A stretch of 64,000 nt of DNA from Hoeflea prorocentri (lineage in GTDB: Bacteria > Pseudomonadota > Alphaproteobacteria > Rhizobiales > Rhizobiaceae). The position numbers and the translations under genes are program-made. This document shows positions 42,545 through 58,645 of the stretch, piece by piece (the first letter of the stretch is position 1; each line of letters opens with the position of its first letter). A model generated the notes under the pieces. It saw only the letters and a list, made by a program, of their open reading frames with translations, did not search any database and was not told the origin of the DNA. The stretch covers positions 1,364,001 through 1,428,000 of the forward strand of contig NZ_JAPJZI010000001.1 in the NCBI RefSeq assembly GCF_027944115.1, given 5' to 3'.

Positions 42545-43786
42545 TTAAGATGCGTGTGAGAGCTGCTCCCGGCGCTGGCGCATTGTGCGCTGCTCAAGCC
42601 CGATGCATCCCCAGATGATGCCGAGCAGGATGTAAAAATGCCGCCAGTGATCGGTGTCGATGAACGTCGATATCAGGATATGGCCAAAGAAGACGACATA
42701 GGCGCAAACGAAATAGGGTTGCCAGGGGCGATCCCTGAGCAGGCATTTGAACCCGACGGCAAGTGTCCAGACAATGAGTGTCAGATAGGACGCAAAGCCG
42801 AGCCAGCCGTAGTCGAGCAGTGCCTTGAGCCAGATATTGTGGGTATCCTCGCCAAATAGTGTGCCGAAGATCAAAGGGCCGATACCGAGTGGTTTGGTCA
42901 GCGCGAGCTCAAGGCCGAGCCAATAGCGGTTGAAGCGCCCGAACTCCCCGGCGTCGTAGCTTTGAACAAGCTGTGCCCGTACGACGAACAGTTCCGCGAC
43001 CTGATCGAATTGCAGCGCGATCAACAGCATGAGGGCGAGTACAAAAAAACCGGCGCATCCAAGAAGCAGAACCCGCAGGCGAAAGGCGGTGGAGTTTTCC
43101 TTCAGCAGCATGATGAAAACGATGGTCAGCATGCAAAGGGCGTAAAGCCCCCAAGCGGCGCGAGAAAAAGACAGGAAAATCGCCATGGTCAGGATCGCAA
43201 GGGCCATGATGCGAGGCAGCGAGGCGCTCAACCGTCCCATAAGGATCTGCTGCATCATGAAACAGGCTGGAAGCACGAGGAATGGTCCGAAGACGTTTGG
43301 ATCTTGGAAAACACCCATTGCCCGGCCGTATCTCAAGAACAGATCGCTTGCGGGAAAGAGCTGAAAATAGCTGAGGATACCGACGAGCCCCGTTGTCAGG
43401 GCTCCAAGGACATAGGCATTGAAGATAGGCCGCAGGCGGTTGCGATCGGCTTCGATCACAGCGGCAAAAAACACTGAGGACAGTGCCAGGAACAGCGACA
43501 CGGCGATGTAGAGCGTACGGCGCGTATCGAGCTGCTCAAGCATTGTCAGGGACAACAGACCGCCAATATTGAAACAGACAAGAATGGTCAGCAAGATGGC
43601 ACTGTTTTTGGAAAGGCGCAGTCCGAAGAGGAACCACACGGCGATAAGGCCGACCATGTAGAGTTCGTAGGGCGCTGGTTCATAAAGCACAAAGCCGGAA
43701 AGAAAGGCGCCGAGCGCAAGTGAGCCTTTGGCAAGGAGAGGCACGGCGGCCGGCGAAAGTCCTCCCTGTGCAATCGTCCCGGCCAT
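42545..43786 (-). CDS. O-antigen ligase / Wzy-like polymerase family membrane protein
   Basis: A 413-residue polytopic membrane protein with about ten hydrophobic segments and a large loop before FGTLFGEDTHNIWLKALLDY, the histidine-containing region typical of the O-antigen ligase / Wzy superfamily. In a locus with an initiating transferase and a flippase it is best read as the polymerase that joins repeat units at the periplasmic face. ATG 43786 overlaps the stop of the next upstream gene by one base (TGATG), so both are co-translated. Confidence 0.85.
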   Translation of the reverse strand: MAGTIAQGGLSPAAVPLLAKGSLALGAFLSGFVLYEPAPYELYMVGLIAVWFLFGLRLSKNSAILLTILVCFNIGGLLSLTMLEQLDTRRTLYIAVSLFLALSSVFFAAVIEADRNRLRPIFNAYVLGALTTGLVGILSYFQLFPASDLFLRYGRAMGVFQDPNVFGPFLVLPACFMMQQILMGRLSASLPRIMALAILTMAIFLSFSRAAWGLYALCMLTIVFIMLLKENSTAFRLRVLLLGCAGFFVLALMLLIALQFDQVAELFVVRAQLVQSYDAGEFGRFNRYWLGLELALTKPLGIGPLIFGTLFGEDTHNIWLKALLDYGWLGFASYLTLIVWTLAVGFKCLLRDRPWQPYFVCAYVVFFGHILISTFIDTDHWRHFYILLGIIWGCIGLEQRTMRQRREQLSHAS

Positions 43787-45339
43787 CAATAGGCGTTTTC
43801 CGAACCGAGCAATCGGAATGGTGTCAGAAAAAGTATCCTCAGGTCAAAGAGCAGCGACCAGTTTTCAATGTAGTAAAGGTCGAAAGCGGTGCGTTGCTTG
43901 ATTTTTTCCGCATCGTCAATTTCGCCGCGCCAGCCGTTGATCTGCGCCCAGCCGGTCACGCCGGGCTTGACACGGTGACGCGCGAAGTAGCCGTCAACCA
44001 CTTCTGTGAAGACCGTGTCATGCGAACGCGCATGAATTGCATGGGGGCGCGGGCCGACCAGTGAAAGCTCCCCCTTCAGCGCATTGAAGAACTGGGGCAA
44101 CTCGTCGATTGAGGTGCGTCGGATAAAGCGGCCGACAGGTGTGACGCGCGGGTCGTCCTTGGTTACCGGATTGATCGCCGTCGGGTCCGATTTTTCGACA
44201 TACATCGATCTGAATTTGTACACATTGATGATTTCGTTGTTGAAACCATGTCTTTGTTGCTTGAACAGGATCGGTCCCTTGGAGGTCATCTTAACGGCAA
44301 TGGCCGTTGCCAGCATGATTGGCGAGAAGGCGATGATGCCCAGGATGCTGAAGACGATATCGAAGGCACGTTTGGCAACTGAGTCCCAGTCATTGATGGG
44401 CCGGTCGAAAATGTCCAGCATCTGGACGGAGCCGATATTGGAGTAGGCGCGGGGCCGGAATTTGAGTTCGCTTGAGTGGGCTGCCAGGCGGATATCGACC
44501 GGCAGTACCCACAGTTTCTTCAGAAGCTCCATAACCCGCTTCTCGGCCGTCAAGGGCAGGGAAAGGATCAACATGTCGATACGTGCCAGGCGGGCGAATT
44601 CAACCAACTCCGAAATATTGCCGAGCTTGGGATAGCCGGCAACAATGGCGGGTGAGCGCCGTTCACTGCGGTCATCGAAAATACCGCAGATGCGTACATC
44701 GTTATCGGGTTGCTGTTCGAGTGCGCGAATGAGTTTTTCGGCCGCTTCGCCGCCGCCGACAATAACGGCACGCCGTTCCATGGTGCCGTCGCGCGCCCAG
44801 CGGCGTATTGCAAATGCAATGAAGTTCCTTCCAAGGGTAAGAAAGGCTAAACCGGACAGGAACCATGACCCGAACCAGACACGGGAAAACTCCTGGCCGA
44901 TTTTCATGAAAAAGGCGGCCGCGGTCAGCGTAGCGAAGGCAATTGTCCAGCCGATGTAGAGTTTAGGCAGATTTCTGAAAGCGCTGCGTAACGACTGTAC
45001 CTGGTAGGCATCGCTGATCTGAAACAGGAGGACCGCAAGGATGGCGCCGGCGACCGAGGCAAATATGTATGAGCTCGTATATTCGCCCTGCGGGGCAACA
45101 TAGATCAGACTGACCGCAATGCCGCAGAGGCTCAGGCCGACGATCTCGAACAGCCGTGCCATGCCGGTGATCATCGCTGGAGAAAGGCTGTCATCACCCA
45201 GCTGACGGGCGATTTGAGTCGCCAGCTTGCCGATTTTTTCGGAAGGTTGAGCGGACGGATCGGCCGGTGGCGTCTGCGGTTCGTCTGCCGGTTGTGCGCC
45301 TTCGGGCTTCTCGGGTTCGATGGTTTGGTGTGCGGTCAT
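43786..45339 (-). CDS. Undecaprenyl-phosphate glycosyl-1-phosphate transferase (polyprenyl glycosylphosphotransferase)
   Basis: A 517-residue initiating enzyme of the bacterial sugar transferase family. After a variable, proline- and glutamate-rich cytosolic tail (about 1-60) come membrane segments and a Rossmann-like CoA-binding-like domain (RRAVIVGGGEAAEKLI near 190). The C-terminal catalytic domain has RAFDIVFSILGIIAFSPIML, GPILFKQQRHGF, YKFRSM and RRTSIDELPQFFNALKGELS, all hallmark motifs. It loads the first sugar phosphate onto the lipid carrier. The sugar is unknown; glucose is common in this family. Confidence 0.9.
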   Translation of the reverse strand: MTAHQTIEPEKPEGAQPADEPQTPPADPSAQPSEKIGKLATQIARQLGDDSLSPAMITGMARLFEIVGLSLCGIAVSLIYVAPQGEYTSSYIFASVAGAILAVLLFQISDAYQVQSLRSAFRNLPKLYIGWTIAFATLTAAAFFMKIGQEFSRVWFGSWFLSGLAFLTLGRNFIAFAIRRWARDGTMERRAVIVGGGEAAEKLIRALEQQPDNDVRICGIFDDRSERRSPAIVAGYPKLGNISELVEFARLARIDMLILSLPLTAEKRVMELLKKLWVLPVDIRLAAHSSELKFRPRAYSNIGSVQMLDIFDRPINDWDSVAKRAFDIVFSILGIIAFSPIMLATAIAVKMTSKGPILFKQQRHGFNNEIINVYKFRSMYVEKSDPTAINPVTKDDPRVTPVGRFIRRTSIDELPQFFNALKGELSLVGPRPHAIHARSHDTVFTEVVDGYFARHRVKPGVTGWAQINGWRGEIDDAEKIKQRTAFDLYYIENWSLLFDLRILFLTPFRLLGSENAY

Positions 45340-45425
45340 GTATCCAGCGGCATCCCTGACTTTCAGGGCTCACGGATATCACAGAGCCGTTAATATTCTT
45401 TGACCCGTATACCGCGGGCGGGCGG

Positions 45426-46562
45426 TCAGGCGGTGCAGTCCCTGTAGAAATCCGTGATCTGGTTCGCCATGGTCCTTGCGGAAAACCGCGTCTCCAGGTC
45501 CATTTTGTCCGGCATCTGCGCCATCAGTTCCCGCGGGGACCCGACTGTGTTTGCCATCGCTTTCGCAAGGGCGTCGGCGTTCCCGGGCGGGATCAGTACC
45601 GGACTGTCGACCCCGAATATTTCAGGTATGCCCCCCACACGGGTGGCGATTACTGGGCGTCCCGCAGCCAGCGTTTCCAGAACGAGGTAGGGCAGGGACT
45701 CCGCCCTTGAAGGCACGACGACAAACTCACCGCGCCGCAAGGCATCGCGAACAGGCATTGCCGGCTCGAGTTTCACCCGGTCAGTCTGGCCGCTGGCCTC
45801 CAGCATGCGCCGGTATTTGTCCTTATCGTCGCCATCGCCGATCATCATGGCGCTTAAAGGCTTGCCGATCAACTTCTCGGCCTTGCCCAGGGCATCGATA
45901 AAGACGTCGGGTCCCTTCAGGTCGCGCATCATCCCGACATAAAGGAAATCGGCCGCGCCCTCTTCGGGCGTTATGTCCTCGAATTCCTTGTCGTGCAAAC
46001 CGTTATAGATGAGCCGGCTGGGCGGCCGTGGGGGGCCGATCTTGGCGGTATAGGCCTGGCGTTCATAGTCGCTGACGAAAACAAGGCCGTCGGTGAAGCG
46101 TTCTAGGAAGCGTTCGAGGGCAAAATAGAACCGTCCGGACAGTTGCGAACGGCTATAGTGGAGGCTGCCCCCGTGCGGGGAATAAAGGCGGGATACGCGA
46201 GACCTGGAAACCCGCAACTGTGAGCCGACCAACCGCGTCATGGCACCGCCTTTGGCGCCGTGACCATGGATGATGTCCGGCTTCAAACTCTTGATTTCAC
46301 TCCTGCATTTTAGTGCAGTAACAATATCTCCTGGCCCAATGGAACGGTGCATGGGAACTCTGGTCAGGCCGAGATTGAGAAATGGCCTGATTGTGTCGAA
46401 CAGGGCATCTTCATGTGCTCCGCCGGTGATGCTGTCACACAGTATTCCAACCTTGTGCCCGGCCTCGTGCTGATATCGTACAAGATCCCGCACATGCCGG
46501 AAAATGCCGCCGACCGGAGAGCGGAAACAATGCACGATACGCAAGGGGGCATGATCCGACAT
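45426..46562 (-). CDS. Glycosyltransferase family 4 protein
   Basis: A 378-residue GT-B fold transferase. The N-terminal acceptor domain has RSPVGGIFRHVRDLVRYQHE; the C-terminal donor site has LPYLVLETLAAGRPVIATRV with the E-x7-E type arrangement (a glutamate in SRAESLPYLVLE). It probably adds the next sugar to the lipid-linked repeat unit at the cytosolic face. It lies 86 bp upstream of the initiating transferase gene on the same strand and 20 bp downstream of the export gene. Confidence 0.88.
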   Translation of the reverse strand: MSDHAPLRIVHCFRSPVGGIFRHVRDLVRYQHEAGHKVGILCDSITGGAHEDALFDTIRPFLNLGLTRVPMHRSIGPGDIVTALKCRSEIKSLKPDIIHGHGAKGGAMTRLVGSQLRVSRSRVSRLYSPHGGSLHYSRSQLSGRFYFALERFLERFTDGLVFVSDYERQAYTAKIGPPRPPSRLIYNGLHDKEFEDITPEEGAADFLYVGMMRDLKGPDVFIDALGKAEKLIGKPLSAMMIGDGDDKDKYRRMLEASGQTDRVKLEPAMPVRDALRRGEFVVVPSRAESLPYLVLETLAAGRPVIATRVGGIPEIFGVDSPVLIPPGNADALAKAMANTVGSPRELMAQMPDKMDLETRFSARTMANQITDFYRDCTA

Positions 46563-46582
46563 TTACGTCCTGACCCTTGTCC

Positions 46583-47158
46583 TCAGAACAGACGCTCACG
46601 GACGTAGATAGTATCGCCCGCCAGAATGGGATCTGAGATCGTTACCCGTCCTGTCAGGACGTCGCCATTGACCTTTCTCGTGATATCGACGTTGGATTGA
46701 TTTGCACGGGCGGTGAATCCACCTGCGATGGCGATGGCGTTTTGTACATTCATTCCAGGAACATAGTTGTATTGTCCTGCCGTATTGACCTCACCAAGGA
46801 TGAAGAAGGAGCGGTGCTGATCGACCTGAATTGAAACATCGGGATCGCGCAAATAGCCCTGGCGCAGCTTTCCTGCAATATGCGTCTCGAGTTCGGAGAC
46901 GGTCTGGCCGCGGGCTGCGACCGATCCGATAAGCGGGAATGCCACATAGCCAGCCTGATCAACTGCATAGGTGTTTGTCAGCTCTTCCTGTTCGAACACT
47001 GTGATGCGCAGATTGTCTCCTGAATCCAGCCTGTAGGGCTGAATGACGGCCTCATGAAAGGCCTGCGGTGCAGGCCGATAACCCGAGCAGGCGGCCAGGG
47101 CAATGGCGAGTCCTGTCATAAGGGCAGCGGCCGCAATTTTTCGTATTTCAAACGCCAT
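46583..47158 (-). CDS. Polysaccharide biosynthesis/export protein (Wza/KpsD-like)
   Basis: A 191-residue outer-membrane export lipoprotein. The N-terminus is a lipoprotein signal (GLAIALAACSGYRP, with the cysteine as the lipidation site). The Poly_export domain follows (YRLDSGDNLRITVFEQEELT) and then a SLBB-type domain (FFILGEVNTAGQYNYVPGMN). At 191 residues it is much shorter than full Wza (about 380), so it resembles the short ExoF/GumB-like exporters that rely on a separate co-polymerase. It is divergent from the PCP gene. Confidence 0.9.
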   Translation of the reverse strand: MAFEIRKIAAAALMTGLAIALAACSGYRPAPQAFHEAVIQPYRLDSGDNLRITVFEQEELTNTYAVDQAGYVAFPLIGSVAARGQTVSELETHIAGKLRQGYLRDPDVSIQVDQHRSFFILGEVNTAGQYNYVPGMNVQNAIAIAGGFTARANQSNVDITRKVNGDVLTGRVTISDPILAGDTIYVRERLF

Positions 47159-47383
47159 GTTGAGCGAATACTCTTCACAGGAGCAGTTATTGAACCGGCC
47201 CCGTTATCGACCGGTTAAGGTTAATGACGGGTAAAGTGTGGGGTATTTTCGCACCCAAACTTTCCGAATGGCGGCATTTGGGGTTAGCGGGCTGATTTTG
47301 TTAATGAAATATAAATGCAGATTTAACCCTTATGTTACCATGTTCATTTACTCATTCGACTGATTGAAGTGGAGTGATTACCC

Positions 47384-49807
47384 ATGCGCGGTTCGCAGTC
47401 GAGCGGCAGTGACGTTGATATTGATATTGTGCGGTTGTTCGTTGCCGTTTGGGAACGGCGCATCGCCATTGTTTCTCTTTTGCTTATCGTAAGCGTTGCC
47501 GCGTTTGTTCTTTCAGGCATGTCGTCGCCGCGATATCGCGCAGAGGCTCGCATCCTGATAGAATCGCGCCAGTCGCCACTGTCCGGCGCCAACCAGACAA
47601 CGAACGGGCGCCCGCAGTTTCTTGACGAGCAGGGTATTGTCAGCCAGGTCGAGATCATCAATTCGACCAATCTGATCAAATCCGTCGCCGATCAACTCGA
47701 CCTTGTCGACAATCGCGAGTTCAGCTCTGCGGCCAAACCCTCTCTTATCGAAAGCCTTCTTATTCAGTTCGGTTTTGAGGAAGACCCGTATGATGCCTCG
47801 CCGGAGGAGCGTCTGATCGAACGATTCCGGGAACATATGACTGTTTATCAGGTCGACAATTCCCGCGTCATCGTGGTTACCTTCTGGTCTGTCGACAGAC
47901 AGCTTGCGGCGCAGGCCGCCAATGCAATCGCCCAGACTTATCTCACGCTGCAAAGCGGCGCCAAGGTGTCGACCAATGTCGATGCGACGGCCTGGCTCGA
48001 GCCGGAGATCGCCGATCTGCGGGACAAGGTGCGCGCGGCCGAGGCGAAGGTGGCGCAGTTCAGGGCCGAATCTGGCCTTTTGCTGGTGGACAGCACGGAG
48101 ACACTCGCCACGCGGCAGCTTTCCGAGATTTCCTCGGAATTGAGTCGGGTGCGCGGCGAAAAGGCCGAGGCCCAGGCGCGGGCGACGGCCGTCAGGAATG
48201 CGATCGAAAGCGGGCGTCCTTCAGAAGACTTTGCCAATCTGGTTCAGTCCGATGTCATCCAGAGATTGCGGGAACGGCAGGCAGCGCTCCAGGCACAGAT
48301 TGCGGATCTTTCCGTAACGCTGCTTGAGCAGCATCCACGGATCAAGGGCTTGCGGTCGCAGTTGAACGATATCGAAAAGCAAATTCAGGCAGAGACCCGT
48401 GGCTTGCTGCGAACATTTGAAAATGACGCAGAAATCGCGCAGCTACGCGAAGATGAACTAAATCAGCAACTTGGCGAGTTGAAAGCGGATTCGGCAAGGG
48501 CAGGCGGCGATGAGGTCGAATTGCGGGCGCTTGAACGCGAGGCAACCGCGCAGCGCGAGTTGCTTGAAGTCTATCTGAGTCGTTACCGCGAAGCTGCCTC
48601 GCTTTCGGACCGGGGCGACCTGCCGGCCGACGCGCGCGTCATTTCCGAAGCATTGGTTCCGACGAAACCCTATTATCCGAAGCCCGTGCCGGTGGCGATT
48701 ATTGCCGGGTTGGTTACCTTCCTGCTTTCGTCTCTCGCCATCATGCTGTTTGAGCTTTTTTCCGGCCGGGCGCTCAGGCCGGTCGATTACGGTGTAGCGC
48801 CGACAAATTCGGATGCAATGGAGCCTGAAGCCGCTGTTGATCCAGGCCCGCCCATTGGGACGGGGCTCACACCAAAACCGTTTGATGATGTGCCCGTGGC
48901 GGGTGTTTCAGACAAGGCCGAACCGGGGGCTGAAGCCTTCGAAACTGCCCGGGAAGACGACGCCGTTGAGACATTTGCAGCAGAGCAGAGCGATGTTGTC
49001 GTGAGCGCGCATACGCCTGACTTGAATGCAGACCCTGTCGGGGCCGATGCACCTGTTGCCGCGAACGACGACAGCTCCGCTGAAAATGACGAGACACTGG
49101 ATGAAGACGTGGTGGTCGAAGCCGGACCGGCCGTTGAAGAACCGCCTCATGACAGTTTGGATGCAAAGGTCCCGGTTGCAGCTGACATCGATGACGGCAT
49201 CATCGAAGACCACGAGCCGGAATACAGTGTCAGTGCCGTCACCGACCATCTGATTGCGGCCGGAACGCGTCTTGCCATTGTGGTCTCGCCCGAAGGCGAC
49301 AAGGGCTCGATGACTTCCGTCATGCTTGCTCGGATGCTGGCAAATGAGGGAAGCCAGGCATTGCTCCTGGATATGACCGGCTCTGCCTGTCCAAGTCGGA
49401 TGATGGTGCCCCATTCGGATCTGCCGGGCATTACCGACGTGCTAGTCGACGACTGCACCGTGCCGGAGGCCCTTCATGCGGACCGCCTGTCAAATGCGCA
49501 TATTCTTCCCCAAGGCATAACGGACCCGGCCATGGCCATGCAAAACGCTGACAAGCTGCCGGATGTGGTTGGCGCTCTGACCAAAGTCTATGACATTGTC
49601 ATTGTGGAATGCGGTCCGGCTAATTCTGCCGGCGTCAAGCGCCTTCTCGACGGGCAGGACGTGGAGATGATCTTCTCCGTGGTGCAGCCCGATGACGATC
49701 TGATGGTTGAATACCTCAACGATTTTTATTCGGAAGGTTTTCAGAATCTTCTCATGATGAGCCCCGGGGCAGGGGCGCCCGGCAGCCCCGACCGGACCGC
49801 TGCCTAA
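47384..49807 (+). CDS. Polysaccharide co-polymerase (Wzz/GumC-type) with degenerate ATPase domain
   Basis: An 807-residue protein of the PCP-2 / GumC-Wzc family. Wzz-like N-terminus (about 10-120) with a first membrane helix (IAIVSLLLIVSVAAFVLSGM), long periplasmic coiled coil (about 205-410), second helix near 440 (VPVAIIAGLVTFLLSSLAIM). Residues about 470-620 are an acidic, low-complexity linker. The last part (about 625-790) resembles the CpsD/BY-kinase ATPase fold (RLAIVVSPEGDKGSMTS), but the P-loop lacks the GK[ST] core. There is no C-terminal tyrosine cluster, so kinase activity is unlikely. Chain length control and export coupling are the likely roles. Confidence 0.86.
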   Translation: MRGSQSSGSDVDIDIVRLFVAVWERRIAIVSLLLIVSVAAFVLSGMSSPRYRAEARILIESRQSPLSGANQTTNGRPQFLDEQGIVSQVEIINSTNLIKSVADQLDLVDNREFSSAAKPSLIESLLIQFGFEEDPYDASPEERLIERFREHMTVYQVDNSRVIVVTFWSVDRQLAAQAANAIAQTYLTLQSGAKVSTNVDATAWLEPEIADLRDKVRAAEAKVAQFRAESGLLLVDSTETLATRQLSEISSELSRVRGEKAEAQARATAVRNAIESGRPSEDFANLVQSDVIQRLRERQAALQAQIADLSVTLLEQHPRIKGLRSQLNDIEKQIQAETRGLLRTFENDAEIAQLREDELNQQLGELKADSARAGGDEVELRALEREATAQRELLEVYLSRYREAASLSDRGDLPADARVISEALVPTKPYYPKPVPVAIIAGLVTFLLSSLAIMLFELFSGRALRPVDYGVAPTNSDAMEPEAAVDPGPPIGTGLTPKPFDDVPVAGVSDKAEPGAEAFETAREDDAVETFAAEQSDVVVSAHTPDLNADPVGADAPVAANDDSSAENDETLDEDVVVEAGPAVEEPPHDSLDAKVPVAADIDDGIIEDHEPEYSVSAVTDHLIAAGTRLAIVVSPEGDKGSMTSVMLARMLANEGSQALLLDMTGSACPSRMMVPHSDLPGITDVLVDDCTVPEALHADRLSNAHILPQGITDPAMAMQNADKLPDVVGALTKVYDIVIVECGPANSAGVKRLLDGQDVEMIFSVVQPDDDLMVEYLNDFYSEGFQNLLMMSPGAGAPGSPDRTAA

Positions 49808-49819
49808 ATCAGAGTTGTT

Positions 49820-50989
49820 CTAGCGGTTGGTGACCCAGAGGCGGATCGCCTTGGCAAGCTTGAAGATGGCCGGATGGTGCTTGGTAAAGCGCTTGATGTC
49901 GGTTGACAGCCGGGCTGCAAGGGCACCGATATGTCCGAGCGGTGTGATGGCCACAAACGTATCATAGTGGGTTGTTTCGACATCGCACCAGGAGCGTTTG
50001 AACTGTTCGTCTCCGACACCGAAATCGAAAGTGTGAGCGCCGGACTCACAGGCGTCGCGAATAACCAGGTAGAATAACAACTCACCCGGACTTGCCGCTT
50101 CTGTCGGCCCGATCGCGATGGAACTGAACTGGCAAATCACATCACGGCCCTTTGTCGACAGAGCCGCTATCGCGCATAAGAACCCGTCGCGGTTGCGCAG
50201 ACGGATCGCGTACATTTCAATTGTTTTTCTGTCCTGACCGACGCTTTCCTGAGCCAGACGGCGGAAATAGGATTTGATCTTCGCGTCATCGAAGACGTCC
50301 GGCAGGCCCATAAAGGCAAAGCGCGCAGCTTTCTGATTGAAGAACTCCTCCAGCAGATCGCCTGCTTCATCGGGAGTGCGCGCTCGTATGTAGTCGTATC
50401 CGCCCAGCTCATCGAGCCGGCGTTCCGAGATGCGAAATTTTTTTCTGCGACGCTTGGCGTTGCCCCTTGAAAGGACAGCATCAAAGCCTCCATCCAGTGT
50501 TGCCTGGAATGTCGGGTTCTGATTTTCAACATGCGGCCAATGGGAAAACGGGTGAACGTATCCATGCCAGGCCCTCGGCTGCCGGTCGAGGAAGACATAG
50601 TCAACGCCGAGCGGCAGTTGGGCAATCTGCTTCCTGATTGCAAGCATGGTGGCCGGATTGGCATCATCGAGGAAATGCGTTGAGAAAACCCCGAAATTCA
50701 CGTTGTTGAACGGCGTTGCGATATATCTGGCAATCCGGAACGGTCCGCTGCGTGTGATACATAGCGGCAGGATGAACGCGGTTTCGCCGGACCGTGCGCC
50801 GGATGTGTAGGTGGCCGTTATGATAAGCGGCGTCGCGCCGGTCTCTTCGATCCAGCCACGGCACCAGTCATAAGTCTGGTGAATACTGCACTCGGGAGCA
50901 GCCTCCAATGCCCGCCATACGGGCTCCAGAGGTTCAATTTCCCTGTTGCATTGAATGGAAAAACTGGTTGCCTCAACCGGTTTTCGCAT
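49820..50989 (-). CDS. GNAT family acetyltransferase (CelD/BcsL-like)
   Basis: A 389-residue protein of the CelD/BcsL (Acetyltransf_6) branch of the GNAT superfamily, a group frequent in polysaccharide loci and related to FemAB. The core region is around 200-330. The conserved C-terminal FDFGVGDEQFKRSWCD motif (near 330) is typical. Start at ATG 50989; an in-frame TTG lies just before. The acyl donor and target are unknown. It converges on the PCP gene and is oriented opposite to the similar gene at 51645. Confidence 0.82.
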   Translation of the reverse strand: MRKPVEATSFSIQCNREIEPLEPVWRALEAAPECSIHQTYDWCRGWIEETGATPLIITATYTSGARSGETAFILPLCITRSGPFRIARYIATPFNNVNFGVFSTHFLDDANPATMLAIRKQIAQLPLGVDYVFLDRQPRAWHGYVHPFSHWPHVENQNPTFQATLDGGFDAVLSRGNAKRRRKKFRISERRLDELGGYDYIRARTPDEAGDLLEEFFNQKAARFAFMGLPDVFDDAKIKSYFRRLAQESVGQDRKTIEMYAIRLRNRDGFLCAIAALSTKGRDVICQFSSIAIGPTEAASPGELLFYLVIRDACESGAHTFDFGVGDEQFKRSWCDVETTHYDTFVAITPLGHIGALAARLSTDIKRFTKHHPAIFKLAKAIRLWVTNR

Positions 50990-51148
50990 CAATCAAATTC
51001 CCATCTCTCATCCAGCATGTCAGCGCCTTGGCCTGCTGAGGCTTCTAATATTTCGCGCGAACAAGTGGAACCAACGTCAGAGACACACTATCCGATTGAA
51101 CTTAAAAAACTCTGATCGATACGAATTCTGGTTAAAATTGGTTGCCGA

Positions 51149-51367
51149 TTAATTGCTTTCGTCGCCTTGCGGCCGTTCCATCCAGCGAATAATCCACATG
51201 GCCGGTAAAACCCAGATTACGCCGCTGACGGCAAAATATATAAGATGCACCCACCATGGTGACTCCGCCAGCCTGTAGGTCGCGACCGTCGTCGCCACCA
51301 GCGCGTAAAGCACCACAAGCGCAATCAAGGCAAATGTACCGATGAGTTTGCGTAGGCGAAGCGGCAT
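51149..51367 (-). CDS. DUF2842 family small membrane protein
   Basis: A 72-residue protein with two membrane helices (IGTFALIALVVLYALVATTV and WVHLIYFAVSGVIWVLPAMW), matching DUF2842, a short alphaproteobacterial family. The conserved MPLRLRKLIGT start and IIRWMERP end are present. Function unknown. It probably is a housekeeping gene caught between polysaccharide genes. Confidence 0.83.
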   Translation of the reverse strand: MPLRLRKLIGTFALIALVVLYALVATTVATYRLAESPWWVHLIYFAVSGVIWVLPAMWIIRWMERPQGDESN

Positions 51368-51644: not shown

Positions 51645-52976
51645 TTGTCATTCCATACGGCAAACATCAGTCCGGTCTCGGATGAAAAGCCGATGGCCGA
51701 TACGCCGCGTCGGATAGATATCGGGTTTCTGTCCGGGTGCCGGTACTTCGCTTATGAGGCGATGGAAGACATTGCGGCTCTGTGGACAGGTCTTCAGCGC
51801 GATTGTGTCGGCACACCATTTCAAACCTATTCATGGATCAAGGCAGTTGTCGCGGCGGATTGCCCAGATCAGGGGGATGGGAAGACCGCTTGTTTCAGGC
51901 CGCTTTTTGTTGTCGGTTTTGTCGAGGACAAACCGGTCGTGATCCTGCCTTTGGCAATTCGCTATGCGATGACCGGCAAGCTTTTGACTTGGCTCGGCGA
52001 CAGGATTTCCGATTATCATGGTCCGTTGGTCGATCGCGCCTATGCATCGCGACTGCCGGACAATCTGATTGAAGCGATTGCGTCTCTGATTCACAGTGCC
52101 ATTCCACAGATCGACGCGGTTCACCTGACACGTCTGCCTGCCAGCGGACCCGATATTGCGAAATCGTCGCTGACAAACGCCTCTGTTCTTGCCGCTGAAT
52201 ACAGCTCCCACACGCTTGCCCTCAAGAAGGACTGGAAGGGTCTTTACGCAGCAATGCGCTCATCCAAGTCGCGCCAGCGTCTGCGCTCGAAATACAGGGC
52301 GTTCAAGGCGACCGGCCGCGTCAGTTTCCGAAGGGTAAGAGGCGCGGAAAACTGTTTGACGGCGGCCCGGCAGATACTGGATTGGAAGTCCGCCCAGGTG
52401 GAGGAAGCTGGCAGACGCAGCCCCTTTGGTACAGCCGATGCTCCAAGTGCCACCCGGATGGCAATCGAAGCGGCGCTGAGTGATGCGGACAATACGTCGC
52501 TGAGAGTCTACGGCCTTTTCAGAGACAACGCTCTCACGGCCGGTATGCTGGCCTTCGCATCCGACCGGGTGTTTTACTACTATGTCTCAGCTTATTCGCC
52601 GCAGCTTGACAGCAAGTTCTCGGCTGGCATCCAGCTTCTGACCAAGACGATAGAACTGGCAGCGCGGGCGGGCTGTGACAGCTATGACCTGCTCATCGGC
52701 GATGAGAAATACAAGAATGATTGGGCCGATACCGATGTCGCTCTGTTCAACTACACGCGCCCGTTTACATTGAAAGGCCGGTTGATCTGCGCGGCCTTGC
52801 ATGCGCGTTTTTCACTGAAGAAGAAGATCATGAGAACCCCATGGCTCGACGATTTCGGTCGTTCGACGGTCAAGACGATCTTTGGCCAGACGGCTCGCAA
52901 GGCACGTCTGGCTGCGCGGGAACCGAGTCGCGGGGATAAAGCCGTCAGTCCCATCCAACACAGACCACCCATGTAG
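51645..52976 (+). CDS. GNAT family acetyltransferase (CelD/BcsL-like)
   Basis: A 443-residue CelD/BcsL-type acyltransferase, first gene of a five-gene operon. Start chosen at TTG 51645 because a strong AAGGAG site lies 7 nt before it; ATG 51693 is an alternative. It has the same C-terminal motif as the gene at 49820 (YDLLIGDEKYKNDWAD), and the central SSKSRQRLRSKYRAFKATG basic segment seen in this family. Function is probably acylation of a polysaccharide or lipid-linked precursor; donor unknown. Two similar genes in one locus suggest duplicated or paired modifications. Confidence 0.82.
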   Translation: MSFHTANISPVSDEKPMADTPRRIDIGFLSGCRYFAYEAMEDIAALWTGLQRDCVGTPFQTYSWIKAVVAADCPDQGDGKTACFRPLFVVGFVEDKPVVILPLAIRYAMTGKLLTWLGDRISDYHGPLVDRAYASRLPDNLIEAIASLIHSAIPQIDAVHLTRLPASGPDIAKSSLTNASVLAAEYSSHTLALKKDWKGLYAAMRSSKSRQRLRSKYRAFKATGRVSFRRVRGAENCLTAARQILDWKSAQVEEAGRRSPFGTADAPSATRMAIEAALSDADNTSLRVYGLFRDNALTAGMLAFASDRVFYYYVSAYSPQLDSKFSAGIQLLTKTIELAARAGCDSYDLLIGDEKYKNDWADTDVALFNYTRPFTLKGRLICAALHARFSLKKKIMRTPWLDDFGRSTVKTIFGQTARKARLAAREPSRGDKAVSPIQHRPPM

Positions 52977-52987
52977 CGAGAGGTTTT

Positions 52988-53710
52988 ATGGCCGGAACGA
53001 TACACAGCACACACAACCGTATCGGCACCTTCCTTCGAAGCAAATTGAGCAGCCACGCGATGGCCCCGGACCTGCGTATGCCGGATGTCGACTGGCTCGT
53101 CCATCTTGTCACGATGCTTATATCGATTGCGGTTTTGGCTCCTGTGGTCCTGCAGCCATGGGTGGAGCCGAAATGGTTGTTCCTCGACGCGCTGACCGCC
53201 GCAGAGCTGTCCGATAGCTGTTGTCGCTCCTATTACGGGTTTATCTCGCTTTTGGGTATCATGATCTGGGTGGCATCAGCAGCCGTGTGTCTGTTCGCCG
53301 CGGCATTGCTGTTTTTCATGGGCAAAAAAAATTCGTTTCTCGTCTTTGCACTAAGCGCGGGACTGTTCACTGGCTGGCTTGCTCTGGATGATGGCTTTCT
53401 CCTGCATGAGCGGGTGTTGCCGGGGCTGGGCGTTCCGCAAAATGCTGTGCTTGCCGGATATGTGATCATCGCCTTTGGTTATCTGGCGGCAAATTACAGG
53501 ATCCTGCTTGCGAGCGATTACTGGCTGCTTCTGGCCGGTGGCGGAGCGCTGGCGTTCAGCATGCTGGTGGATGTGGTCTTCCACAGTCTTGATCCGAACA
53601 TGGTGCTGCTTGAGGACAGCGCGAAATTTGTCGGCATATGCGCGTGGGCCACGTTCCACATCACTACGATGGCCAAAATCCTGCTTCTTGATCGCGAGGC
53701 CAGACCATGA
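52988..53710 (+). CDS. Multi-pass membrane protein of unknown function
   Basis: A 240-residue protein with about six hydrophobic segments (for example LVTMLISIAVLAPVVLQPWV and VLAGYVIIAFGYLAANYRIL). Two motifs stand out: LDDGFLLHERV after the third helix and MVLLEDSAKFVGICAWATF in the last part. The spacing of acidic residues and histidine resembles a widespread family of hypothetical proteins with LDE..xxHE and LEE..E motifs. I do not know its function. The stop overlaps the ATP-grasp start (ATGA), so it is co-translated. A role in the polysaccharide pathway is inferred from context only. Confidence 0.7.
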   Translation: MAGTIHSTHNRIGTFLRSKLSSHAMAPDLRMPDVDWLVHLVTMLISIAVLAPVVLQPWVEPKWLFLDALTAAELSDSCCRSYYGFISLLGIMIWVASAAVCLFAAALLFFMGKKNSFLVFALSAGLFTGWLALDDGFLLHERVLPGLGVPQNAVLAGYVIIAFGYLAANYRILLASDYWLLLAGGGALAFSMLVDVVFHSLDPNMVLLEDSAKFVGICAWATFHITTMAKILLLDREARP

Positions 53711-54963
53711 CCTCAACCTCCGGTAAAGAACCGGTCGCCTTGCTGCTGGGCAACTATCGCCCATCGCTTACCCTGGCGCGAGACCTTCAGCGGAAAGGTT
53801 ACCGTGTTGTGGTCAGCTCGCATGGATGCGAACGAGGCTGCCAATACAGCCGGGCGGTTTCGGATATCTGGGATCATGCACCGCTTGAGGCCACACCGGA
53901 CAGGTTTGCCCAGGAACTGCAGATGTTCCACAAGGACAATCCGAACCTTGCGGTTATTTTTCCGGTTGCGGAGGAATATGTCCGTCTGATTGCCGAGCAT
54001 GAAAATTCGTTCGAAGGCCTCCCGCCGATTGCCACGGTCGATGCTGCAACCGTCCGCAAATGCCTCGACAAGCCATACATGATGCAACTGTCGCATTCGT
54101 GCGACGTTCCCACCGCGCCTTTTTCGACGAGTTCAAATACCGAGCAGTTTTACTCGGCGATGGAGACAGTCGGTTTTCCTTTGATCGTGCGGCCATCCGA
54201 TTCAACAAAACGGATCGATGGCGCAAAGGCCTTGTTTCTGAATTCCGCTGCCGAGGCGGAACAGGCCTTCAAGGATTTCAGCCTCGGGTATCAGGACCTT
54301 CTGCTTCAACAAAAGTTCGAGGGTGTTCGCCACAATGTCTATTTTGCTGCTCACGACGGCGTCGTGAAACGCTGTCTCCATGCGGTTATTGATCGTACGG
54401 ACAGCCCCGACGGAACCGGGCTTGCCGTTGAGGGCAGAACACTTCCAGCCGGTCACCCGCTTGTCGATCAGACCTGCTCACTTGTTCGCGCACTCGGCTA
54501 CACCGGTATCGGTTGCGCGCAGTTTCTCTTTGATGAAGTGACGGAGCAAAGCTCCTTCCTGGAAATCAACCCGCGCATTGCCGGCAATCACGCCTTGCCG
54601 GAGTTTGCGGGCCTGGAGTTGGGCACGTTCATGCTCGACCTCGCACTCGGCCGCAAGCCGGGGGCTGGAAGCGAGCAGGGTCGGGCCGGTATTCGCTATT
54701 GCTGGACCAGCGGCGATCTCATGGGAGCCAAAGTTTCCTATCTGAGAGGCGAGGTCAGCCTGCGAGAAACAGTCACGTGGATTATTCGGGCGCTGTCCGT
54801 TGGCTTTCGATCCGATGTCCACATGGTTTTCAGCGTGTCGGATCCCGCGCCGGCGCTTCACGCCCTTTGGGATGTCGTGCCGCGCCTTGCCCGTTGGAAA
54901 CGGCCGGTTATTTCACCGCGTCAAAATACGATAACAAATCATACTTCCGGAAAATCGTTATGA
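53707..54963 (+). CDS. ATP-grasp domain-containing ligase
   Basis: A 418-residue ATP-grasp enzyme (carbamoyl-phosphate synthetase large-subunit-like). The N-terminal pre-grasp domain begins PVALLLGNYRPSLTLARDL; the ATP-binding core spans about 115-310 (GFPLIVRPSDSTKRIDG, DLLLQQKFEGVRHN). The metal-binding motif is FLEINPRIAGNHALPEFAG. ATP-grasp ligases form carboxylate-amine or carboxylate-thiol bonds via acyl phosphate. In this locus it could attach an amino acid or another amine to a sugar or lipid carrier precursor. Both ends overlap neighbouring genes (ATGA), so it is translationally coupled. Confidence 0.84.
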   Translation: MTSTSGKEPVALLLGNYRPSLTLARDLQRKGYRVVVSSHGCERGCQYSRAVSDIWDHAPLEATPDRFAQELQMFHKDNPNLAVIFPVAEEYVRLIAEHENSFEGLPPIATVDAATVRKCLDKPYMMQLSHSCDVPTAPFSTSSNTEQFYSAMETVGFPLIVRPSDSTKRIDGAKALFLNSAAEAEQAFKDFSLGYQDLLLQQKFEGVRHNVYFAAHDGVVKRCLHAVIDRTDSPDGTGLAVEGRTLPAGHPLVDQTCSLVRALGYTGIGCAQFLFDEVTEQSSFLEINPRIAGNHALPEFAGLELGTFMLDLALGRKPGAGSEQGRAGIRYCWTSGDLMGAKVSYLRGEVSLRETVTWIIRALSVGFRSDVHMVFSVSDPAPALHALWDVVPRLARWKRPVISPRQNTITNHTSGKSL

Positions 54964-56126
54964 ACATGAATGTAGATGCACGTCTGTCCAGCCAGGCCAA
55001 CACCATTGGCCTTGAATCTGTAAAGGCAGCCACAGGTCACCGCGGGGCTTTATCCAGCGGCCTGCGGGTGCAGGTTGTTGCACCCCTGGAATGGGATGAA
55101 ATCGCGACGGGATTTGCTGATATTCTTCCTGAGCAAACGGGCGCCTTCAATATCGCGCGGTGGGGAGAGGATCGCATTGAATGCGTGAAGTTCCTGGAGA
55201 ACGATCGCATTGTTGGCGGGGCGGTTGCCTATGTTCGCCCAATTCCGCTGACCGGAACCGGTATTGCCATCGTCAAATGGGGACCGATCTGGCGTGCGAA
55301 GGGACAGGAGGTCAGCGATGACATGTATCGCAGGATCATACTTGCCCTGGACGAGGAGTATTGCACGCGCCGCAACATGCACCTGACGGTCGCGCCGCAG
55401 GCGGTTCCACCGTATGACGCGCTGGCGCTGAAGGTGCTGGAACAGCTTGGATTTTCCAGGGGCGCGAGTTTCGCCGCGCCGGAGCGCTACCTCGTCAATG
55501 TCGATCTTGCCGAAGACGATCTGATGGCGAGCCTCGATCAGAAATGGCGTTACAATCTGCGCAAGTCATGGAAGAACGAATTTGATATCGCGTTTTGCAA
55601 CGACGACAACGGACTGAAGGAATTCCTCAAGCTCTATACAGAGATGACAAGCAGAAAGCAGTTCCTTGATGCATCCGCGATCGACTCGCTCGAGGATTTC
55701 GTTCGAAATGGCGTAAACGGCATAAGGCCGTCCGTGGTTCTCGTTTCGCACGAGGGGACACCCACTGCAGGCGGCGTGTTTTTCGCATCCGGCGAAGTGG
55801 CAAGTTATATGTACGGAGCGACCGACGGTCGGGCCCTGCGTCTCAAAGCGGGGTACGCGATGCACTGGTGGATTGCTCAACATTATTGTCAGCAGCCCGG
55901 TGTGAAATGGTACGACCTGGGCGGCAACGATCTGGATTCGGGCCTGCATCAGTTCAAGAAAGGCATGGTCGGCAAGGGCGGCAGCATCGTTGATGCCCCG
56001 CCGCGTTTTCACCATGCCCGCTCGCTCTTGTCCAACTTTCTGGGCACCTCGGTTTTCCGTCTACGTGACGCGATGTCTGCTGTAGAGCGTTACAAGCATG
56101 ACCTGCTGCGAAAGGCCGGCCGGTGA
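54960..56126 (+). CDS. FemAB-like GNAT peptidyltransferase/acyltransferase
   Basis: A 388-residue protein of the FemAB/GNAT type (lipid II:glycine glycyltransferase-like fold). It starts at ATG 54960, overlapping the ATP-grasp stop. Features: WRYNLRKSWKNEFDIAFC (basic segment before the second GNAT half), YMYGATDGRALRLKAGYAMH, and KWYDLGGNDLDSGLHQFKKG near the C-terminus, close to the DLxG…xFK motif of FemX/FemAB proteins. These enzymes transfer aminoacyl groups, often from aminoacyl-tRNA. With the ATP-grasp ligase beside it, an amino-acid decoration of the polymer is plausible. Its stop overlaps the flippase start (GTGA). Confidence 0.83.
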   Translation: MNMNVDARLSSQANTIGLESVKAATGHRGALSSGLRVQVVAPLEWDEIATGFADILPEQTGAFNIARWGEDRIECVKFLENDRIVGGAVAYVRPIPLTGTGIAIVKWGPIWRAKGQEVSDDMYRRIILALDEEYCTRRNMHLTVAPQAVPPYDALALKVLEQLGFSRGASFAAPERYLVNVDLAEDDLMASLDQKWRYNLRKSWKNEFDIAFCNDDNGLKEFLKLYTEMTSRKQFLDASAIDSLEDFVRNGVNGIRPSVVLVSHEGTPTAGGVFFASGEVASYMYGATDGRALRLKAGYAMHWWIAQHYCQQPGVKWYDLGGNDLDSGLHQFKKGMVGKGGSIVDAPPRFHHARSLLSNFLGTSVFRLRDAMSAVERYKHDLLRKAGR

Positions 56127-57445
56127 AACACGGCGCGTTTCGAAGCTTTCTTGCGCGATTTTCGATCCTGGTTTCGGGCCGCCTTGTCGGCGCGGTGGCA
56201 ACATTTGCCCTCAACCTGCTGATTATCAGGCTCCTGGGCGTTGATGCGCTGGCCGATTATGCGGTGTTCGTGTCGATTTCCGGTGTGCTGGCGGTCTGCC
56301 TTTTCCTTGGTTTCAACTCCGTCGCGTCCTTCTTTGCTGCAGAATACCAAAACGACAAGTCCCTTGATCTGCTGAAGGGTTTCGCCATACGGGCAATGAA
56401 AAACGGTTTGGCGGTTATCGCTGTTCTGCTGGCAGCTTTCAGCGTCTACTGGGCGATAAACCCGGTCGGCATCGGCCTGGACCATGTGGCCTATCTCGGC
56501 ATTGTCGTCGTGACGGCCGCCGGCCTTGCGACACTCAATCTGAACAGCGCGATACAGGTCGGGCTGAAGCGGCCTCTGGCGGGGTTGCTGCCGGATACAT
56601 TGCTGCGTCCCGTTATCCTGATCGCCGGCGCCGCCCTTCTGCTTTTCGGCCAGTGGGTGACGGACATATCCGGGATCATAGCCCTGGCCGGCGTTGCCGC
56701 CTGGCTTGCGGTGGCGGCGGTCTTGATCTGGGATGCAAATTTCCGCAGGCGTTTCAGAGAATTTGACGGACGCGGGGAAAGCGGCCGCTGGTACCGGGCT
56801 GCGTTTCCATGGCTGGGCACGAGCCTGCTTTGGGATCACATGATCGATCTCGTTGTTTTGACCGCCAGTCTGCTCGCCGGTTCGGTCGAAATCGCGATCC
56901 TTCACATCTGCTTTCGTTACCGGGTGCTTGCCGGCTTTGGAATGCGGACCATCCATTCGCTGATGATGCCGGAAATCACAGAGCAGACCTTGCGACGCGA
57001 TACTGAAGCCCTTCAGCGCAAATTGTTTCTGACAAATATCGCGTCGATCGGTTATTCGATTTGTGTTCTGGCCGTGTTCGCAGTCGTCGGTCACTTTCTG
57101 CTCGGCCTGTTCTCGAAAGAGGTGGAGGCCGGTTATCCGATTCTTCTTGCCGTGACCCTGACCATGCTGGCGCGCTCGATCTTCGGTCCCGCTCCGCTTA
57201 TTCTTGCCGTCCACAATCAGCATGTGGCGACGATGCTGGTGAGCCTTGCCGGCCTCGTCGTAGCCGTCACATGGATGATGCTGGCCTATCCGGGTCTTGG
57301 AATCATGGCTGCAGCGTCCGGATACACGGCGGGCAATCTTCTTGTATCGGTGGTCTTGTGGCGGTATGCGCGCCTGAAGACCGGCATCGACTGTTCCATC
57401 TTCGCGGCCTTGACGCCGGCCGGAGCCACTTTTGCCGTAAAGTAG
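56123..57445 (+). CDS. Polysaccharide flippase (Wzx/MurJ-like, MOP superfamily)
   Basis: A 440-residue membrane protein with about twelve hydrophobic segments, starting at GTG 56123 which overlaps the previous stop. The N-terminus (ILVSGRLVGAVATFALNLLI, IRLLGVDALADYAVFVSIS) and the pattern of paired helices match the Wzx / polysaccharide-transport group. It would move the lipid-linked repeat unit to the periplasm for polymerisation by the Wzy-like protein encoded at 42.5 kb. Last gene of the operon; the next gene, ctaA, begins 123 bp later. Confidence 0.85.
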   Translation: MKHGAFRSFLARFSILVSGRLVGAVATFALNLLIIRLLGVDALADYAVFVSISGVLAVCLFLGFNSVASFFAAEYQNDKSLDLLKGFAIRAMKNGLAVIAVLLAAFSVYWAINPVGIGLDHVAYLGIVVVTAAGLATLNLNSAIQVGLKRPLAGLLPDTLLRPVILIAGAALLLFGQWVTDISGIIALAGVAAWLAVAAVLIWDANFRRRFREFDGRGESGRWYRAAFPWLGTSLLWDHMIDLVVLTASLLAGSVEIAILHICFRYRVLAGFGMRTIHSLMMPEITEQTLRRDTEALQRKLFLTNIASIGYSICVLAVFAVVGHFLLGLFSKEVEAGYPILLAVTLTMLARSIFGPAPLILAVHNQHVATMLVSLAGLVVAVTWMMLAYPGLGIMAAASGYTAGNLLVSVVLWRYARLKTGIDCSIFAALTPAGATFAVK

Positions 57446-57568
57446 CACTGCCCGGCAGAAAACACTGTCAGGACACGTTTGCCGGTGATGAGGCAAAATG
57501 GCGCTTGCCTTCGGCTGCACTCTGCTTCAAATGTCCGAAAAATCAGTCCGTTGACGGAAAGCCGATCC

Positions 57569-58645
57569 ATGAGTGTTGCAGAGAGTTCGGATAGTGTAGC
57601 CAGGAACCGTGTGGCGGTGCGGATTTGGCTCGGGATCGTTACCCTTGCGATCTTTGCTCTTGTGATTGTCGGCGGCGCAACACGATTGACCGATTCAGGC
57701 CTTTCGATAACGCAATGGGAACCCATCCATGGTGTCATCCCGCCGCTCAGCGAAGCCGAATGGCAGGAAGAGCTCGAGCTCTATCGGCAAATTCCGGAAT
57801 ATCAGCAGATCAACAAGGGCATGAGCCTTGATGAGTTCAAGTTCATCTACTGGTGGGAATGGGCTCATCGGCTGTTGGCACGCGGGGTAGGGGTTCTCTT
57901 TGCCGTGCCGCTCCTGGTTTTCTGGGTTTCGGGGCGCATTGAACAACGCCTGAAATTGCCTCTTTTGGGACTTCTAGCGCTTGGAGGGCTGCAAGGCTTT
58001 ATCGGATGGTGGATGGTCACGTCCGGCCTCGTCGACCGGGTGGATGTCAGCCAATACCGGCTTGCAACGCACCTGACGCTGGCCTGTGTGATCTTTGCAG
58101 CGATAATCTGGGTCTCGCGCGGGCTTGCTCCGCATAGCAGCGACCGACCCCCATCGGAGGGGTCAGGTGGTTTTGCCGGTCTTATAGCCCTAATGATCGT
58201 CGTGCAGATTTATCTCGGAGGTCTTGTCGCGGGGCTTGATGCGGGGTTGGCCTATAATACCTGGCCCTTGATGGACGGCGCATATGTTCCTTCGAACCTG
58301 CTGGTGATGGAGCCTGTGTGGGTGAATTTCTTCGAAAACGCCAAAACTGTTCAGTTTACCCACCGCGTCTTTGCCTATCTTCTGTGGCTTGCAACGCTGT
58401 TCCACATGATCAGATGCATGGTTCTTGCGCCTGAGACGACCCATGCCAGGCGTTCGGTCGTCCTATTTGTCCTGATGACACTGCAGGCGGCTATCGGCAT
58501 CACGACACTGCTTGAGCAGGTGCCGGTGACTTGGGCGCTAATCCATCAGGGCATGGCATTGGTGGTACTGGCCTTTGCCGTCGCGCACTGGCGCGCTTTT
58601 GCCGGCACCTATCCAAGACCCGCCCTGTCCCTTCAGGCAGCCTGA
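57569..58645 (+). CDS. ctaA: Haem A synthase (COX15/CtaA)
   Basis: A 358-residue membrane enzyme that oxidises the C8 methyl of haem O to make haem A for cytochrome aa3 oxidases. Start at ATG 57569; upstream codons to 57479 are not family-like. Two four-helix bundles are evident. Haem-contacting regions: [70 protein letters not shown] and [16 protein letters not shown]. This is the COX15-type form common in alphaproteobacteria. Confidence 0.93.

Follow-up and report, generated by a model that had tools for sequence, protein, structure and literature searches.

The window analyzed here, a stretch of 64,000 nt from Hoeflea prorocentri whose own positions are used as coordinates throughout, contains at 51645-57445 an autonomous and recurrent cassette of five genes, with a core of three, that seems to have been inserted here; this conclusion is well supported. 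The genes encode an N-acyltransferase (GNATb), a membrane protein of an unnamed family (TM), an ATP-grasp ligase (ATPg), a Fem-family aminoacyl-transferase-like protein (FemAB) and a Wzx-like flippase (Wzx). Judging from these protein families, the cassette would be an autonomous, probably horizontally moving unit that makes amide bonds, aminoacylates a membrane-carried acceptor supplied by the host and flips the product, a function to which we give an even chance of being right.

The five open reading frames (ORFs) were confirmed, all on the forward strand. GNATb, an Acetyltransf_6 protein (PF13480, Pfam E 1.1e-21), is encoded at 51645..52976 from a TTG start at 51645 preceded by a plausible ribosome-binding site, AAGGAGA, and 11 nt lie between its stop at 52976 and the ATG at 52988 of the TM gene (52988..53710). 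The following junctions are 4-nt overlaps: ATGA at 53707-53710 into the ATPg gene (53707..54963; Pfam CPSase_L_D2, E 6.7e-12), ATGA at 54960-54963 into the FemAB gene (54960..56126; Pfam FemAB, E 9e-15) and GTGA at 56123-56126 into the Wzx gene (56123..57445). A first-pass annotation of this sequence had proposed such a set of five coupled genes, and the junctions bear it out. Its family names also stand, with Pfam and NCBIfam in agreement for the GNAT, the familyless membrane protein, the ATP-grasp and the FemAB proteins, and with the flippase recognized through its relatives.

Recurrence of the cassette in related genomes

An ATP-grasp profile was searched (E ≤ 1e-50) against samples of 397 genomes of the order, 385 of the class and 398 of the phylum. 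The family was detected in 40 of the 397 order genomes, the host included, and in three more of the class sample, and the 398 genomes of the phylum sample gave no further one. We analyzed 47 neighbourhoods of the gene, 814,604 bases in all, most of them 20 kb long or reaching as far as the contig allows; with the window counted, all order genomes with the family except G424 are represented (39 of 40). FemAB was found in 33 of them, Wzx in 35, TM in 27 and a separate GNATb-like gene in 18 (some of these weak), with GNATb fused to ATPg in two more. All five families are present in 12 neighbourhoods, 10 of which keep the gene order of the window, and, the window counted, no fewer than 30 of the 397 order genomes have ATPg alongside FemAB. 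The tight spacing seen in the window recurs in the relatives beyond what chance would give, in such a way that 102 of 112 successive family pairs on the same strand lie within 60 nt and 73 overlap (starts were guessed by script). The gene order varies, for instance to TM-FemAB-Wzx-ATPg in L071, supporting a functional linkage rather than the mere inheritance of one stretch. The nearest named relative, with 54% identity, is a metagenome-assembled genome (MAG) of Hyphomicrobiales.

For the comparison of tree distances, single matches above 170 bits without internal stops were used, and a refined set was made by dropping the partial or outlying loci L017, L054, L057, L068 and L090. FemAB and Wzx distances correlate with r = 0.94 (n = 31), and FemAB, Wzx and GNATb mutually with r between 0.94 and 0.97 (n = 13-31). 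The ATPg distances agree more weakly with those of the other families (r 0.60-0.72), and the pair ATPg-TM gave r = 0.12 (p = 0.14) in the first set, probably through L017, and 0.72 in the refined set. Such uneven correlations are consistent with some independent exchange of genes.

The first-pass annotation had assigned the cassette to an exopolysaccharide (EPS) pathway, an assignment that, in its own terms, orthologues in unrelated contexts without polysaccharide genes would refute. This is what was found: in single-sequence phmmer searches (E ≤ 1e-5), none of the 47 neighbourhoods, L088-L090 included, matched the Wzy, priming transferase (PHPT), GT4, Wza or Wzc proteins of the window or GT2 seeds of the host, of which three out of four (all but L123) had a usable ORF. 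As the orthologues lie in unrelated contexts without the queried glycan genes, the EPS assignment does not generalise. Among the genes flanking the cassette, the commonest clusters resemble SDR (7 of 44 loci), sensor kinase (6), ABC (6), response-regulator (5) and AMP-binding proteins (4); Pfam was run on a small selection of flank genes (two of L011, one each of L013 and L015, neighbours of L016 and L019, and ten more).

A scan of contigs with a single protein gave two loci. In a MAG of Ilumatobacter, on an actinobacterial contig (L019:523-3134), an ATPg relative stands without other cassette genes and overlaps the ORF upstream of it, which resembles AMP-binding proteins weakly (E 5.8e-5, a score below the cut-off). 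Relatives of the ATPg gene are doubled in L067 and L070, both without cassette partners.

The surroundings of the window copy

Upstream of the cassette and outside it, at 42545..50992, Pfam and NCBIfam models recognized a locus with genes for Wzy_C, an HfsE/WcaJ-like PHPT, GT4, Wza and Wzc together with another GNAT (GNATa), and downstream lies ctaA/COX15 (57569..58645, forward strand; Pfam E 4.8e-111). By its gene content the upstream locus would fit a unipolar polysaccharide (UPP) cluster, which passages of PMC4018554 and PMC12727192 present as an incomplete Wzy-type cluster with an HfsE homologue.

This locus was then compared among 61 relatives, the own genome included, where PHPT was found in 56, ctaA in 59, and the ATP-grasp gene in just nine at E ≤ 1e-10, one of them a weak partial match (G003). 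Of 15 relatives whose regions were fetched, 14 have Wzy, PHPT, GT4, Wza and Wzc near ctaA, the other one (L112, from G003) being covered from ctaA to part of Wzc, and cassette genes were found at none of these 15 UPP-like regions (L112 partial). The GNAT next to Wzc in L121 does give a score with the GNATb profile; its position, however, makes it the counterpart of GNATa, to which it is also the closer in pairwise comparison. The distance from PHPT to ctaA is 12.2 kb in the window versus 6.1-6.6 kb in G001, G002, G004-G007, G026 and G031. The borders drawn by blastn are a DUF2842 gene on the left (matched part at 51170..51367, reverse strand; Pfam E 1.1e-23), which is kept in congeners, and ctaA on the right, with the flank matches 215 nt apart in L108 versus 6,236 nt in the window. 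Since congeners hold the UPP-like locus beside ctaA without the module, the window module looks like an insert of around 6 kb, and the congener loci, the distances and the blastn borders together rule out that the cassette belongs to the UPP-like locus as a constant component.

The congeners G006 and G007 do have the cassette, on contigs other than those of their UPP-like locus. Their ATP-grasp proteins are only 40-41% identical to that of the window, whereas ctaA and PHPT show 79-81% identity, so the window copy does not seem to have been passed down with the rest of the genus genome. Spread on plasmids, as far as it would be visible in PLSDB, was discarded, as the 23 matched records hold only distant ATP-grasp proteins (20-29% identity).

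In this one genome the cassette could still serve its neighbour, by putting amino acids or acyl groups on the lipid-linked repeat of the UPP-like polymer and by supplying its flippase. The adjacency to the Wzy, PHPT, GT4, Wza, Wzc and additional GNAT genes is in favour of this, as is the incomplete upp cluster of Agrobacterium, whose flippase a passage of PMC4018554 gives as not yet identified in 2014. However, the 15 fetched UPP-like regions do without cassette genes, G011, G042 and G056 hold both loci on different contigs, the module recurs away from the queried polysaccharide genes, and another flippase gene is present in the host. The latter, at L128:7507-10219 of the own genome (G000:C2, about 307.5-310.2 kb), encodes a Polysacc_synt flippase and lies 1 nt apart from a PF13480 GNAT gene, the pair adjoining a large ORF that resembles secA (judged from sequence by eye). 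All seven congeners searched have this flippase, with 60-70% identity, and so do 23 of the 31 genomes in total, the own one included. It may be the flippase that serves the UPP-like locus without being linked to it, and given its presence the host does not obviously need that of the cassette. A role for the UPP-like polymer is thus considered improbable even in this genome. Of the decoration of an EPS repeat before export that had been proposed in the first-pass annotation, amide or acyl transfer before flipping stays plausible, whereas membership in an EPS pathway in general is not supported, in view of the 47 neighbourhoods without glycan matches and the congener EPS loci without the cassette. 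The case illustrates how a functional assignment can go astray when genes happen to adjoin an EPS locus in a single genome.

Two observations concern the site itself. In the congener G003 an unrelated stretch of around 13 kb (L112:5071-18454), with metabolic and sensor-kinase-like genes by eye, lies between GNATa and Wzc; as it splits the UPP-like locus, the region tolerates insertions. In the window, an imperfect direct repeat is present close to the two ends of the insert, at 51662-51694 (the start of the GNAT gene) and 57538-57566 (just ahead of ctaA); it was unseen by eye in the upstream regions of L107 and L108, and was not used as evidence.

Protein families and the proposed pathway

ATPg belongs to the ATP-grasp superfamily, by its fold and by its E-x-N-x-R motif. 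The residues of this motif, which binds metal/ATP, are invariant in 31 aligned rows (E286, N288 and R290). The best fold match of its model (predicted local distance difference test, pLDDT, 90.7) in the Protein Data Bank (PDB) is biotin carboxylase (E 4.5e-19, TM-score 0.59), and the family profile has its best match in carbamoyl-phosphate synthase. A biotin carboxylase proper was rejected, since the NCBIfam carboxylase models give at most 33 bits against cut-offs above 500 and the cassette has no carrier gene. In two genomes ATPg and GNATb are fused in opposite orders, with GNATb ahead of ATP-grasp in L059 and with ATP-grasp ahead of GNATb in L084, which suggests that both enzymes act on the same intermediate.

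The FemAB family profile matches FemX sequences of solved structures with E values from 9e-12 to 9e-10. Against Weissella FemX the C-terminal half alone aligns, with the YDLGG and L..FK motifs kept, and against 6snr two weak stretches were found that partly reach into the N-terminal half. The C-terminal motifs and the profile match would place the protein among the FemABX ligases, and the poorly aligned N-terminal half implies that its acceptor may differ from that of FemX. The NCBIfam FemX model scores 28.7 bits on it (cut-off 500). Membership in an XrtA/PEP-CTERM EPS system was discarded, with 25.5 bits for the FemAB model TIGR03019 against a cut-off of 260.35.

These two ligases could instead build a side branch of peptidoglycan, ATPg acting as in D-aspartate ligase and both adding residues to lipid II or to its precursor, with the branched form being flipped. 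In favour of this, parts of PMC2922099 describe ATP-grasp and Fem ligases that build the D- and L-amino-acid cross-links of Gram-positive-type walls. Moreover, it is the lipid II:glycine glycyltransferase and FemX that the Fem-like profile matches best in the PDB, and a MOP flippase is present. On the other side stands the alignment itself, confined to the C-terminal half with Weissella FemX and weak in the N-terminal part of 6snr. To our knowledge such cross-bridges are not known in this order. In the recurrent flank clusters, only the smaller part of which was compared with family models, no peptidoglycan gene was recognized by eye. We consider it unlikely that the cassette modifies peptidoglycan.

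The TM protein shows six long helices in its AlphaFold model (pLDDT 87.7), and no Pfam family matched it at E ≤ 0.1. Within its family each Pfam family matches at most one of 22 aligned members, with a best E value of 0.026. The alignment of these 22 rows has 17 invariant columns, D134, D135, H140, S191, D195, E209, D210 and K213 among them. In the PDB it gave one sequence match (E 0.13) and no fold match at E ≤ 0.001, the alkaline ceramidase ACER3 (6g7o) being a weak fold match (probability 0.41, E 1.6, TMq 0.33). D134 lies six residues before H140, like the spacing of cpCone in the Lipocone superfamily (PMC12419801, in part), a likeness by description. Membership in that superfamily would call for His, Glu and Asp on three consecutive core helices. 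No VanZ model was found among the Pfam matches of the TM family at E ≤ 1. A ceramidase/CREST-like and a Lipocone-like nature of the protein are candidates only.

The flippase of the window itself has neither a Pfam match nor a PDB sequence match at E ≤ 1. In the alignment of its family, however, Polysacc_synt (PF01943) is matched by 13 of 23 members and MatE by two (E ≤ 0.1), so it is through its relatives that the family is assigned to the MOP superfamily. The MatE matches would suit a transporter that works like a MATE pump, exporting a soluble or diffusible metabolite such as a peptide made without nonribosomal peptide synthetases (NRPS), an N-acyl amino acid or a lipopeptide. This would agree with the ATP-grasp and Fem/GNAT ligases of small-peptide pathways described in parts of PMC2922099, and with the AMP-binding proteins found in four of the 44 flanks. 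Nevertheless, Polysacc_synt is matched by 13 of the 23 relatives, the flank families recur in at most 7 of 44 loci, and the TM protein suggests a membrane-bound step; a diffusible product is consequently regarded as quite unlikely.

For a cassette that aminoacylates and flips a membrane-carried acceptor, the following steps are proposed. The ATP-grasp enzyme would convert a carboxylate through an acyl phosphate into an amide, and the GNAT would work on the same intermediate. The Fem-like enzyme would transfer an aminoacyl group, probably from aminoacyl-tRNA, onto an amine of the acceptor, a lipid that, as the cassette does not make it, would come from the host. The membrane protein, with its conserved acidic, His and Lys residues, may act on the lipid or its head group, and the Wzx-like flippase would carry the finished molecule across the inner membrane.

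Several data weigh against this proposal. All its chemical steps derive from family membership. TM distances correlate with those of FemAB, Wzx and GNATb just at r 0.44-0.60, and part of the agreement of the trees could stem simply from a common history of the species. Of the 47 neighbourhoods, 20 gave no TM, 14 no FemAB and 27 no GNATb, be it a gene of its own or a fusion, although contig ends cut some of them (L017, L054, L057 and L068 included) and absences there may not be real. L088 and L089, which lie outside the order, have TM-ATPg-Wzx sets and L061 has a TM-ATPg pair, and with gene sets so variable not all the proposed steps may be needed. ATPg stands without any of its four partners in eight of the 47, and in three of these partnerless cases (L016, L065 and L067) it adjoins M20 peptidase and PrpF genes, which is a second context for this ligase family. 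The flanking AMP-binding proteins are a further point. As to glycans, single-sequence phmmer searches could miss divergent glycosyltransferases, and sugar-nucleotide genes are present in two neighbourhoods, L056 (UDP-glucose dehydrogenase family) and L076 (an epimerase by eye); searches with these two genes gave no further copies in the 47. Finally, a mobility gene was not found, so we infer horizontal movement from the contrasts among congeners, for which loss of the cassette is a less economical alternative to insertion.

A more specific version of the proposal, which we put forward only tentatively and think rather unlikely, is a glycan-free and NRPS-free mobile pathway in which a short amide chain would be assembled by ATP-grasp, GNAT and Fem-type ligases on the membrane lipid itself, to be processed by a new intramembrane enzyme family and flipped by its own MOP transporter. 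If true, one bacterial order would have aminoacylated or peptidylated lipids of a class not described before. If the general proposal is right, at least 30 of the 397 sampled order genomes, those that combine ATPg with FemAB, would devote a pathway to an envelope molecule not yet characterised. Part of the interest of the cassette lies in its membrane protein family, with no convincing Pfam match.

Comparison with known systems

No description of the cassette was found in the open-licence literature searched, largely at abstract level. Part of it could be listed in a 2009 survey of amidoligases by Iyer, Aravind and colleagues.

With Wzx/Wzy pathways of the UPP/holdfast type the cassette shares the MOP-type flippase, the PF13480 acyltransferases and, here, physical adjacency. 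It differs in lacking a priming transferase, glycosyltransferase, polymerase, Wza and Wzc. Such genes, which in a Wzx/Wzy system would be expected in the same unit, lie only beside the window copy, and the UPP/holdfast-type locus exists in relatives without the cassette. The first-pass annotation was right in calling the part list unusual for such a pathway.

The Fem-like protein shares with FemABX ligases (FemX of Weissella viridescens and the lipid II:glycine glycyltransferase 6snr) the C-terminal half with YDLGG, and L..FK with Weissella FemX, but differs in its diverged N-terminal half and in the company of ATP-grasp and flippase genes. In a similar way, ATPg has in common with the ATP-grasp ligases related to carbamoyl-phosphate synthase and biotin carboxylase the fold and the E-x-N-x-R stretch, whereas it is a stand-alone protein of 418 amino acids with conserved motifs of its own, in a cassette without genes for a biotin carrier or a partner of carbamoyl-phosphate synthase. 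The non-ribosomal peptide-ligase operons of Iyer, Aravind and colleagues (PMC2922099), in the parts of that work that describe ATP-grasp with GNAT/Fem ligases, also join ATP-grasp and GNAT-fold ligases in one operon, as is the case here, and from these the cassette differs by its MOP flippase and its unnamed membrane protein.

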